Shown: positions 24,773 to 29,800 of the stretch, one piece after another
Layout of the letters: each line of letters starts with the position of its first letter
How positions within the stretch are numbered: the first letter of the stretch is position 1
Assembly (NCBI GenBank): GCA_025917655.1
Contig: CP084611.1
Location: forward strand, 4,650,001-4,714,000
Length of the DNA: 64,000 nucleotides
Origin: Chlorella sorokiniana
Taxonomy: Eukaryota; Chlorophyta; Trebouxiophyceae; Chlorellales; Chlorellaceae
Reading direction: 5' to 3'
Made by a program: the position numbers and the translations under genes
The notes under the pieces: generated by a model
Told to the model about the DNA's origin: nothing
The model's input: the letters and a program-made list of their open reading frames with translations, nothing else
Database searches by the model: none

Positions 24773-26483
24773 TCAGTAGGGCTGGAAGCCGCGGCCGCGC
24801 CCCCGCCCGCGGCCGCCTCCGTACGGCGGGTAGCCGTAGCCAAACATGAAGGGCGGGGGCATCATGGGCATCATGCCGTAACCATAGAAGCCGCCGCGCC
24901 CCGTCCGCGCCCCCCCCCGCCCCCCCGCCTTCATGCCCGGCACGTTGGTGCGCTTGGGGGCCACCTTGATGGCGCGGCTGCGCAGCTCCGAGTTGTCCAG
25001 CAGGCAGGCGTTAGCCACGGCATCTGCCTCCAGGAACTCGATGTAGGCAAAGCCCTTGGGGTTGCCCATCTTGTCTGCGCAGAGGGAAGGGCACGACTTG
25101 CAGGGGGTCGGCTCGGACTGGGAACGACGGAGGGTTGGAGGGACGAAGACACCGCCTCGTGGAGGGCCAGCAGCGGCTGGCAGCGAGGCCGCTGGGGAGT
25201 GCTGAGCGTCGCTTCACGGCGGCAGCTTGCGGCGGAGGGGTGAGAGGGCTGCAAGCCCCGGCCAAGCAGCACTGGAGGAGCGGGCAGGGCAGGCAGGGCA
25301 GGCACGGCGGGCGCCGCCGCCGCCGCACCCACCTGTGAGGATGGTGACGCGGTTGACGGTGCCGCACGACTGGAAGTGCATCTGGAGCTCCTCTGGGGTG
25401 CAGCTGTAGTCCACGTTTCCGACGTACACTGCGGTACAGGCAACACATGTGGCTTGCTGCGGCGAGCGCTCAGCATCATGCTCAGGGCGAAGGAGCGGGG
25501 GTGTTGCTGGAGCGCCAGCACAGAACCGGAGCAGGCGGCAGCAGGGTGCCCACCTGAGCGGCCGTCGGCCTCCTCCCTGGCCGCTGTGTCGGCAGAGCCG
25601 CTGCCCGAGGGCGCCATGCCCGCCTCCTTCTGCGCCTTGTCCTGCGGAGGAAACACATGGATCGCAGTGCAGGTTAGGGGCTAACATCTGGCGTGGGCCA
25701 TCTGCCTGAGGGGGTCGCGAATGCGCCAGCCAACATGCAGCGTCACCTCGCCCCGCCCTGCTGCGGCTTGCCTGCATCTCCTTCAGCTTTGCTGCCTCTT
25801 TCTCCATATCTGCCAGGCGTGCCTTCATCGCCTCGAGCTCCTGCTCCTGCAAGCGCGTACAACAAGCGGCAGAGGGCGATGAGGAAGGCAAAAACACAGC
25901 AAGCACTGCTTGCTCACAGAGCCATGTGCTTCATTCCCGCGCAGCAAATTTCTTGCACCGTCCCTTGACAGTTTTCAACTGCCGACCCTTGCGGCTTTCT
26001 TGCACCGTCCCTTGACGGTTTTCACTGCCGACCCTTGCGGCGTTTTCATCACCGTCCCTTGACGGAGTAGAGGCCGACCCTTGCGGCTTTTTTTTTTTTT
26101 CACCGTCCCTTGACGGACAGCCGGCACCGTCCCTTGACGGGCTTCTTGAGGCTGTGACTTGCACGTCCCTTGACGCAATGGTTTTATGGTTTCTCCCACT
26201 GGCTGGCTGCAAGCCTGCTGCTGCCAGGCAGAGACGACACCTGAGAGCGTGGCGCCCAAGGGCCGCCGCTGTCGCCACCCTGGTGCGACTACTGCCGAGG
26301 CGCGCTCTGTAAAGCCGGCTACGCGCGGTCAGCGGAGTCCATCAACGTATTAAACCGTCCCTCGGCGTGCCCCACCGAGCCAGCGTCGCACCGCTGCAGC
26401 ATCAACCATGTCCTCGGCACCACCCTCCACCTCCAGGTCGCCGGCCTGGAGATCATCGCCCCGTAATGCTCGTTATCGGCCAT
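24773..26483 (-). CDS. PABPN1: Nuclear poly(A)-binding protein, PABPN1/PABP2 type
   Basis: Binds nascent poly(A) tails in the nucleus and controls tail length. Five exons: 26483-26392, 25846-25772, 25641-25554, 25428-25333, 25074-24773, about 217 residues, the usual size for plant PABN. Order: acidic N-terminus [24 protein letters not shown]; coiled-coil [20 protein letters not shown]; linker; a single RRM with RNP2 VYVGNV and RNP1 KGFAYIEF; and a Gly/Arg/Tyr-rich C-terminus (repeated GRGRG, YGYP). The start at 26483 is chosen because the acidic stretch typical of PABPN1 follows directly; one base seems missing in the G run at 26459-26464. Intron 2 has a GC donor (ATGCAG|GCAAGC). Intron 1 (about 545 bases) holds an array of short hairpin repeats. 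Head-to-head with the ePHD-AAA gene. Confidence 0.87.
25956..26175. repeat. Array of nine short hairpin repeats, ~24-base spacing, in PABPN1 intron 1
   Basis: Two related elements recur. Type H, CACCGTCCCTTGACGG, is at 25956, 26003, 26050, 26101, 26125 and (degenerate) 26162. Type G, GCCGACCCTTGCGGC, is at 25981, 26027 and 26073. H and G alternate, with start-to-start spacing of 22-28 bases up to the fifth H copy. Both share CCG-N-CCCTTG-(A)CGG; CCGTC pairs with GACGG around a CCTT loop in type H, and CCG with CGG in type G. A partial copy (ACCGTCCCTCGG) lies at 26354. A poly-T tract (26087-26100) interrupts the array. Confidence 0.9.
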
Positions 26484-26850
26484 CTGCCTGGCTCCGGGTT
26501 GAGATGCAAGTCAGATGCAGTCAAGAGGGCGGGAGGGGCTCGGGAGAGCTGTTAATATGGCGAGAAGCGCACGCACAAAGTACCGGCGAGATGGAAGCAC
26601 CGACTGTAGAGCTGTTCAGAGGTGGAACTTCCACCCCGCCAGCTCAGAACATGGGGAGCGGGGCGAGGCTAACTGGGACATCAAAGCATTTGAAAGGATT
26701 TCGCGGCAGTTATCGGCAGCAAAGCCGCGCTACTGATCCCTCTGCAGAGCTGCTCTGCCCAAAAATGCTCAAGCAGCGGAGGGAGCCCTCCTGGTGTCGC
26801 ATCGCTCTCTGATCACATAACTTGGGTCCCCAAAGCTCGCCCCAGTCACC
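26484..26850. promoter_or_regulatory. Divergent upstream region of PABPN1 and the ePHD-AAA gene
   Basis: The 367-base interval between two opposite start codons should act as a bidirectional promoter. No canonical TATA motif or coding sequence was recognised. Confidence 0.45.
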
Positions 26851-29800
26851 ATGTTTCACCGCAGCTGCGCCTTCTGTTCCCAGCCGGCCGCCGCGGCCGT
26901 CAACCTCGGCCCTCTGCTGGGCCCCATCCGCGACCCTCGGGCTGCCAACCCTGATGGGCTCTTTGCGCACCGCCTCTGCGCCTTGTGGAGCTCCGAGGTG
27001 GGAACATAGACGGCAGCACACCTGGTGGCCAGCGCGCCTGCGCTGTGGCCCAAGCACTGCGGTGGTTTTGCCGCCTGTCGCTGCCTGTTGTGCGCACAGC
27101 ACGCCGTGCCGATCCCAGCACTGTGGGCCTCCCCTCCACACCAACACAACCCCCATGGCGGCCAGGTGTTCGAAACCGACAGGGGCACCCTGCGCAACGT
27201 GCTGGCGGCCATCAAGCGCGGCCGCCTGATGAAGTGCGCGCACTGCGGGCGGCGCGGCGCCACGCTGGGCTGCCGCGTGGCGAGCTGCAGCTGCAGCTTC
27301 CACGTGGCCTGCGCCAAAGAAGCCGGCTGCACCTACTACTGCGAACAGTTCCTGATTGCCTGCCCCAGCCACTGCCGCCAGTTCACCGAGGAGACGCACC
27401 AGCAGGCCAGGTGAACGTGCGCCTGGGGTGCCGTCGGCCTGTTGTAATGTTTGGGGTGGCGGGGGACAGGCTGCCGGGACGGAGGCGACCTTCCGGGGTC
27501 TGCTCCCGCTGCGCTGCTGCCATCAAGGCTGGCGACAGCCCTCTGTTTGTGGCACGCAGCACCTGAGCCCCGCCCGGCCTGTGCCCCCCGCAGGCGCACC
27601 CCCTTCACCCCCTTTCGGCTGCCGACGGCTGACGTGGCGACCGACGAGCGAGAGCACACCAGCGGGGCGGGGCTGGCTCGGCTGCGAGATGGCGAGGCCT
27701 TGGAGGAGGATCTCCTTCCCCCGCCCACCGAGCTCTTCCTGCGGTCAGCCAGCTGGCTGCCTTGCCTCCGCCTGGCTGGGCACAGTGCACGCTTTGCCTC
27801 GTTTTCATACAACCCAACCTGCCCCCACCCCCGGTTCCTTCTCACTCACCCCTTTACCCACCTCCGTCCCCGCGTCCTCCTGCCTGTGCAGGGGCCGCAA
27901 GCGAGGGCGCCGTCAGGAGGCCGTGCGGGCGCACATACTGCGGGCGGCGGCCGCCATGAAGCGCGCCCGTCGCGACATGGAGAGCCAGCGGTGCGCTGGC
28001 TGGGGGCTGGCCTGCCTGCCTGGCCCGGCGCACCGCCGCCGAAACGCCGGCCCTGCCAAGCGCGCCCTGCTGCCGGCTGTGATGCGTCAGACTCGACTTC
28101 AGCCTCTGCTTTGAACTCTTCCACAATTGCTTGTGCGTGACTGCTGCCGTGCAGGCACCGCGCGGCGGAGTCGTCCGACGACGAGGAGCACTTCCAGAAG
28201 AAGGAGGCCCGCCGCCTCGCCCGCGACACCGGTGCGGCGCTGTTTCGGCCTGGATCCAGGCTGCTCACTTGAGCTTTGCTGGCTCGGCCGGGCAGGCCGC
28301 ATGCCCCGCTGTGCCTATAAGCCCGCTGTGCCTATAAAGCCTCCATCCCTGCTGCGCACTGGAGCTCGCTGGCTTGCCCGGGCAGGCTGCGAGCCCTGCT
28401 ATGCCTATTCAGCACCGCTGTGCCCATAGTATGTGTCAGATGGGCTTCCCCTGGGAGCTTACGTGGTGCCCCCAGAGCGGTTTGCTTGCATGCGTTGATG
28501 GCCGGCCCTGCCGCGCCCCGCCTCTGCAGCCAAGCTGAACCCCATCACGCTCAACGGGGACGGCACCGCCGTGCAGCACGTGTTTGTCAAGTCGCCCGCG
28601 CCGGGCAAGGCCGCCAAGCAGTCGGGGCTGGCGGGTGGGTGAACGCGCGGGGGGGCGGCGGCGCTGGAGCGCATGCTCGTCCTCTTCCAGCGCAGCCTCA
28701 GGGGCCTTGCAAGGTGTCTTGTTTTGGTTGCGCGTGGCCGTCTGGTTCCCACAGACTGCCTCCTTGTGCATGCCGGCCCGCTGCTGCAGGCTCGGGCCTG
28801 CTGGAGAGCGGGCAGCGCCACACGCGGCGGGCCGAGGAGGCGGCGCAGCAGCCGCAGGACCAGCAGCAGCGCGTGGAGACGGCGGCGGTGGGCAGCATCG
28901 CCGCCACCGACTTCAGCTGCGTGGCAGGGCTGGGTGAGCTGATGCGATGCGCTGGGTGCCTGGGCAGCGCTGTATTCTCTTCGCTCGCCTGCCGCCTGCC
29001 TGCCGAATGCCTGTCTGCGAGCACCGCTGGCGGCCCCGTGAGTTATGCGGCGCGCAAGCCGCCGCCGTCTCGCCGGTGCTGCCGGAGCTTCAGCGCGACT
29101 GATGCCACTTGCTTGCCTCTGTTCTGTTGACTCTGATCCGACCCTCTCTTTGAAATCTCGTAATCTCTTCCCCCTGCAGACGGGGTGGTGCGCCAGCTGC
29201 GCGAGATGGTGCTGCTCCCGTTGCAGTACCCTGAGCTCTTTGGCGGCATGGGCCTGCGCCCCCGCGGTGAGGCACGCCGCTGTTGCACGTGCGGCCTGGC
29301 GACACAACACAACTGCCTGCTACGCTGGGTGCGGGCTGCTGGGCCCGCTTGTCTCGCTTCGGGAGCTTTGGGTGGGGGCGGGGGGCCAGGGGGCAAACCC
29401 ATGCACCTTCAACCCCCCAACACACACACAAAAACGCGCGTTCATGCACGGATGCACAGCGCACCACATCGCCTCCTGCACCCCCTGCGTGCAGCGGCAT
29501 CCTCTTTCATGGCGCCCCCGGCACCGGCAAGACGCTGGCGGCGCGCGCGCTGGCGGGCGCCTGCGCGCGCCACTCGCCGCTGCCGGTGACCTTCTTTGCG
29601 CGCAAGGGGGCCGACTGCCTGGGGAAGTTCCACGGCGAGGCGGAGCGCACCCTGCGGCTGCTGTTTGAGGAGGTGGGCCCCTTGCGGTGATGGTGGGGCT
29701 TCGCATGGTGGCGCAGACGATGCTGCGGTGTTGTGCCTGCGCACGTGCCGGGTGGTTTGGCGCAGACAGTGAAGCGGTGTTGGGCCTGCACACGTGTGTG

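Follow-up and report, generated by a model that had tools for sequence, protein, structure and literature searches.

Locus and array

The window, that is, the whole stretch of 64,000 nucleotides of DNA that was analysed, carries on its minus strand what appears, judging from its sequence, to be the gene of the nuclear poly(A)-binding protein PABPN1, and inside the first intron of this gene lies an array of nine short hairpin-forming units (Table 1). The protein, obtained by joining the exon translations by eye, matches the RRM_1 family of Pfam with an E-value of 1.8e-14, and its best match among solved structures is an entry named Poly(A)-binding protein 1 (E 2.5e-51), followed by PABP2 chains. 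This best match, 2m70, is presumably an Arabidopsis protein, and the encoded protein looks plant-like, in keeping with a green alga. When the genome was searched with the RRM part, the sole matches at E <=1e-10 were two exons of the PABPN1 gene itself. Regarding the gene start, the presumed ATG (26483) is out of frame with a conserved stretch beginning at 26457, in whose frame a stop lies just upstream; the mismatch between 26457 and 26483 reflects either an assembly indel or an unrecognised upstream exon.

The location of the array in intron 1 of PABPN1, as given in the preliminary description, was borne out by the reading frame and the splice signals, since the end of exon 1 and the start of exon 2 join in frame around a GT-AG intron (26391-25847). 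The frame continuing from exon 1 hits a stop 13 codons into the intron. The array spans about +216 to +434 of the intron, with 111 nt between it and the acceptor end; some 300 bp of PABPN1 precede it, and ~675 bp separate it from the presumed first ATG (26851) of a divergent gene, called ePHD-AAA in the preliminary description, whose first exon piece, of 52 residues, has no match to any Pfam family.

Table 1. Positions in the window of the host gene, its first intron and the elements of the array
Feature	Position	Strand	Remarks
PABPN1 gene, coding part	24773..26483	-	RRM protein; best solved-structure match 2m70
Intron 1 of PABPN1, 545 nt	25847..26391	-	inferred from reading frame and GT-AG
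Unit A1	25958..25971	-	CCGTCCCTTGACAG on +; the one change is a U-G wobble on the transcript strand
Unit B1	25982..25994	-	CCGACCCTTGCGG on +
Unit A2	26005..26018	-	exact core
Unit B2	26028..26040	-	exact core
Unit A3	26052..26065	-	exact core
Unit B3	26074..26086	-	exact core
T13 on + (A13 in the PABPN1 transcript)	26088..26100	-	B3-A4 spacer
Unit A4	26103..26116	-	exact core
Unit A5	26127..26140	-	exact core
Unit A6	26163..26176	-	both outer positions changed; outer core pair G-U on the transcript strand

The array is real: a pattern scan of the window found all nine of the claimed units, at 25958-26176 and in the order A1 B1 A2 B2 A3 B3 A4 A5 A6. Unit A reads CCGTCCCTTGACGG and unit B CCGACCCTTGCGG, the latter being embedded in GCCGACCCTTGCGGC in the three B units. 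The core is exact in four of the six A units and in all three B units, A1 departing from it by one change and A6 by two, while the word CCCTTG is identical in the nine units. The two versions had been said to alternate with a spacing of 22-28 bases for most of the array. In fact, the alternation spans units 1-7 and the final three units are all A, while the start-to-start spacings, of 24, 23, 23, 24, 22, 29, 24 and 36 bases, stay within 22-29 in seven of the eight gaps and reach 36 in the last, following no multiple of three. Six of the eight spacers are 8-11 bases long, though some of them are without common sequence. Tandem Repeats Finder gives a period of 47 with 3.1 copies and 84% matches at 25949-26090 and, together with the nine units, this represents one unit repeated head to tail at a single locus, as expected of a minisatellite. 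At 26355, 180 bases away but still within the intron, a weak match with two mismatches, which would be the tenth, was excluded from all counts.

The A13 that the sense RNA carries at the array is the longest A/T run in the window. In a sample of 264 kb, comprising the window and 20 sampled 10-kb stretches of the 38.8-Mb genome, two runs reach at least 11 bases, one being the T13 of the array. Runs of at least 13, on either strand, number 14 among the matches listed, which come from the first 4.46 Mb of contig 1, so that a given 545-nt intron would be expected to hold one ~0.002 times, a rarity that was noticed after the fact. The run may have arisen by slippage, eased by the T-rich spacers. 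If the intron is transcribed as the gene model implies, the PABPN1 transcript includes an A-rich tract, as an autoregulatory element of this gene would require.

On the minus strand, one frame stays open for 136 codons over the entire array (25931-26341), without a methionine, and a second, at 25975-26328, covers the greater part of it with 117 open codons. Long open frames are unsurprising at 66% G+C; the best Pfam match of the first frame fell below the cut-off (E 0.3, 11.5 bits versus 28.1), and the second had no match. A coding repeat is unlikely in view of the lack of a methionine, the stop in the frame from exon 1, the non-triplet spacing and the absence of a Pfam match at the cut-off. 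Between 25848 and 26860, four sites resemble terminators; two of these coincide with array hairpins that run into T tracts on the plus strand (average in shuffles, 1.0). A bacterial-type terminator, a signal that to our knowledge is unfamiliar in algal nuclear genes, was nevertheless set aside as a reading.

Folding of the units and divergence of the spacers

The preliminary description held that all units form small stems, and that the two versions differ in both arms as if the stem were being kept. Folded singly as transcript-strand sequence, every one of the nine units gives a minimum-energy stem of 5-7 pairs with a four-base AAGG loop, the B stems carrying a one-base bulge. Out of 200 shuffles per unit, those folding as well numbered 0 for A1 and A2, 1 for A3, 5 for A5, 9 for A4 and 13 for A6, versus 8 for B1, 11 for B2 and 63 for B3; the B hairpins are therefore weak, B3 most of all. 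Both arms do differ: in B, one arm base of A has been lost and the opposite base is changed and unpaired. Since the outcome is a bulge, the difference is not compensatory, and the idea of a kept stem survives only weakly, through the pairing of the inner stem.

For the transcript strand, pairing is seen in 48 of 51 cells (94.1%, a value that 15 of 500 shuffles reached). In the inner five pairs, all 42 scorable cells are paired, including one U-G and one G-U wobble, the three B units having a gap at the U-A pair and being unscored there. The plus strand has 45 of 51 cells paired (88.2%, a value reached by 3 of 500 shuffles), with 40 of 42 in the inner five pairs. Inner-stem pairing thus leans weakly to the transcript strand, resting on two units, A1 and A6. 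The covariation score, computed on units that are related copies, was 0.213 for sense, a value that 8 of 500 shuffles attained, and 0.056 for antisense, attained by 19 of 500.

Folding at a larger scale gave no support for a sense-specific signal, the array as a whole reaching z -1.74 in sense (9 of 200 shuffles as good) and z -3.12 in antisense (1 of 200). Moreover, the folding of the intron (25848-26394), which had been proposed as a check, returned nothing unusual (z -0.05, 49 of 100 shuffles as good). The most constant part of the units is the loop together with its closing pair, unlike the prediction of selection on the stem only. No known RNA family was recognised in 25500-26900, where three matches of 11-15.8 bits stood against gathering scores of 37-61.

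The AB dimers 1 and 2 are alike at 45 of 47 columns, and since this near-identity extends through the spacers, the pair represents a tandem duplication, probably a recent one. Dimer 3 has cores identical to those of dimer 2 and an A-B spacer at chance similarity (3/9 and 3/10 columns), and the B-A spacer that follows it contains T13. The B2-A3 spacer retains some likeness to B1-A2 (8/12), equalled in 4% of shuffles. For the spacers A4-A5 and A5-A6, compared only with each other and with B1-A2 and A2-B2, similarity is at chance level, and the A4 and A5 cores are identical despite this unlikeness. Measured against whole-unit copying, spacers included, dimers 1 and 2 thus stand at one end and the A3-B3, A4-A5 and A5-A6 spacers at the other, with B-A between.

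Counted by columns, cores agree at 27/27 versus 11/25 for spacers in dimers 2-3 (nominal Fisher p 2.5e-6), at 26/27 versus 11/26 in dimers 1-3 (nominal p 1.5e-5) and at 26/27 versus 17/22 in dimers 1-2 (nominal p 0.077), values which are inflated, because conservation was the criterion by which the core was picked out and because a single block replacement is scored as many mismatches. The keeping of the cores while the spacers diverge implies either that the cores are under constraint or that the copying process favours the core.

Occurrence in the genome and elsewhere

A search of the whole genome for scattered copies of the core had been suggested, and it showed the exact A core to be confined to intron 1 of PABPN1: CCGTCCCTTGACGG occurs 4 times in 38.8 Mb, always in the array, as do the 3 exact occurrences of GCCGACCCTTGCGGC. 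A scattering of the core over the genome, which would have told against a regulatory role, was not seen. With up to 2 mismatches, GCCGACCCTTGCGGC has 450 matches, its control 363. The pattern CCGNCCCTTGNCGG gives 18 matches and its reversed control also 18, and the 12-mer CGTCCCTTGACG gives 10 (5 in the array and 5 elsewhere), its reversed control 12. The inverted repeat CCGTC-N4-GACGG is found at 24 places, 4 in the array and 20 elsewhere; the 675 matches of its reversed control make an unfair yardstick, the control being another palindrome. CCCTTG triples amount to 52 genome-wide, 7 of them overlapping in the array and 45 elsewhere, against 9 for the control. Several of the 45 are tandem arrays of different units (for example C13:180199, C8:2344606 and C11:1738602) and, since such CCCTTG-containing arrays occur, short local arrays are not strange in this genome. 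Used as a DNA query against the genome, in a mode that skips very common words, the array matched nothing but itself.

In the window, loose matches (<=2 mismatches) show no enrichment (25 versus 19.7 expected; 18 of 100 shuffles as high), and the excess over chance is the clustering of exact cores, not of loose matches. Within the 264 kb, no other locus packs six non-overlapping copies of one 10-mer into 230 bp, two further places reaching five. A covariance model built from the nine units gave them 24.9-31 bits, and nothing else in the 264 kb more than 16.1 bits.

Outside the genome, the two-core pattern was found in two stretches of genome_contigs and two of viral_contigs, all four of which are read as convergence. 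One of them, L049:1883-1962 (Streptomyces curacoi NZ_KQ947985.1), holds four copies of the 14-mer CCGTCAAGGGACGG at an exact 22-bp spacing, a curious twin of the intron array and probably a convergent one; such arrays can therefore arise without relation to PABPN1. The same 14-mer is present at L048:1108-1137 (bacterial MAG JAKAMI010000012.1), flanked by A and T runs in the manner of a terminator hairpin and, by eye, directly after an apparent tRNA gene. L050 and L051 have, also by eye, common sequence around the two-core match, and the A/B alternation is absent from the stretches read of L048-L051. When viral_contigs was searched with the PABPN1 protein, none of 13 pattern matches was confirmed. 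A literature search by title and abstract opening found no publication on the array, and neither 14-mer was present among the matches listed in a literature text search for the core words.

Origin of the array and its possible roles

We lean, at somewhat better than an even chance, towards a local imperfect minisatellite in intron 1 of PABPN1, in which a hairpin-prone core was multiplied in place. A simple minisatellite had been kept as a fallback in the preliminary description, and it remains the likeliest reading. The 14-bp core would have been multiplied in situ by replication slippage or template switching, both as single units and as the AB dimer, with one dimer duplication being recent, and the hairpin itself may be the cause of copying limited to the core. 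The array would be tolerated because it is intronic and clear of both splice sites, and would presumably lack a function. A minisatellite is favoured by the self-match in the genome search together with the local position of all four exact A cores, by the match of dimers 1 and 2 through their spacers, which is a mark of tandem duplication, by the changed edge unit A6 and the slippage-like T13, and by the ordinary folding of the intron. As in intronic minisatellites with repeats of some tens of bases, the array is local, head to tail and the only one in the genome, with a nearly identical dimer pair, a slippage-like tract and an altered edge unit. Unlike them, it has cores more alike than its spacers, its unit is a hairpin, and spacer sequence has been replaced in places with the length roughly kept. 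The minisatellite reading is disfavoured by the fact that whole-unit duplicates decaying at one rate would not keep cores and lose spacers, by the 8-11 bases held in six of eight spacers even where no sequence is shared, and by the survival of the inner stem on the transcript strand in all units. If neutral, the array would be a clear case of a hairpin core spreading locally with its spacers replaced, which bears on the origin of minisatellites.

A regulatory role of the array is possible, though on balance it would more probably have none. The form such a role could take with least difficulty, which we nevertheless consider unlikely, is a homotypic cluster in which each 14-bp inverted repeat (CCGTC-4-GACGG) would bind a dimeric factor, the whole acting as an intronic enhancer or as one shared by PABPN1 and the divergent gene. 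Constant cores between spacers that vary in sequence but mostly keep their length would suit such sites, as would the fact that what is most constant is a specific word, CCCTTG in nine of nine units, beyond a mere stem, and the position of the array close to the starts of both genes (~300 bp inside PABPN1, ~675 bp before ATG 26851). Nevertheless, the 12-mer core is found only 5 times elsewhere in 38.8 Mb, with a total below that of its reversed control, and CCGTC-N4-GACGG at only 20 other places, so that no widely used site of this exact form was seen. Moreover, B is an imperfect inverted repeat, and a spacing of ~23 bp represents a non-integer number of turns of a DNA helix with 10.5 bp per turn. 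In Chlamydomonas, intron-mediated enhancement is reported without a distinct motif in the enhancing introns (PMC7419008). The present case shares with it an early intron and an apparent green alga, and differs in the strong local motif of PABPN1 intron 1.

Less probable again is a platform in the pre-mRNA, where C[AAGG]G hairpins and A runs, A13 among them, would bind PABPN1 or a splicing factor, delay the splicing out of intron 1 and thereby hold down the PABPN1 level. All 42 scorable inner-stem cells pair on the transcript strand, two of them as wobbles, against 40/42 on the other; A13 lies in the transcript of a gene whose product binds poly(A), and a retained intron 1 would meet a stop after 13 codons from exon 1. 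The autoregulation of human PABPN1 by intron retention was reportedly described by Bergeron et al. in 2015. According to two reviews, human PABPN1 binds an A-rich region of the 3' UTR and promotes the retention of its own 3'-terminal intron (PMC12385487, PMC5602073), which would lend the platform a precedent in the same gene, also with an A-rich tract in the transcript. Nevertheless, the human case concerns a different intron and a tract in the 3' UTR, while the present array is in intron 1 and retention and binding are here hypothetical. In addition, unusual folding is more pronounced in antisense (z -3.12) than in sense (z -1.74) and absent from the intron as a whole, the strand argument hangs on A1 and A6, and A13 may be plain slippage. 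A specific version of the platform, which we regard as improbable, would be a homeostatic device: the A runs would bind surplus PABPN1 while the regularly spaced C[AAGG]G hairpins hold a partner, and the splicing of intron 1 would be slowed, yielding a transcript with an early stop. If true, autoregulation of the kind known in people would have been reached here by an independent route. More generally, a functional array would suggest that the nuclear poly(A)-binding protein has come under the control of its own introns on more than one occasion.

That the array is one member of a dispersed family of hairpin repeats, or what is left of a mobile element, is very improbable and largely refuted within this genome. 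Its palindromic units and variable spacers are reminiscent of short palindromic repeats in the organelle genomes of Volvox, but the genome-wide pattern and DNA searches found no array or exact core at a second place, and in the rest of the 264 kb the covariance model scored nothing above 16.1 bits.

Two further observations concern the host gene. Between the array and the acceptor of intron 1 there is a separate perfect 7-pair hairpin, AGCAAGCAGTGCTTGCT, at 25898-25917, followed on the transcript strand by a T-rich stretch, and the second intron seems, by reading frame, to use a GC donor at 25770-25771 (ATGCAG before the junction and GCAAGC after it).
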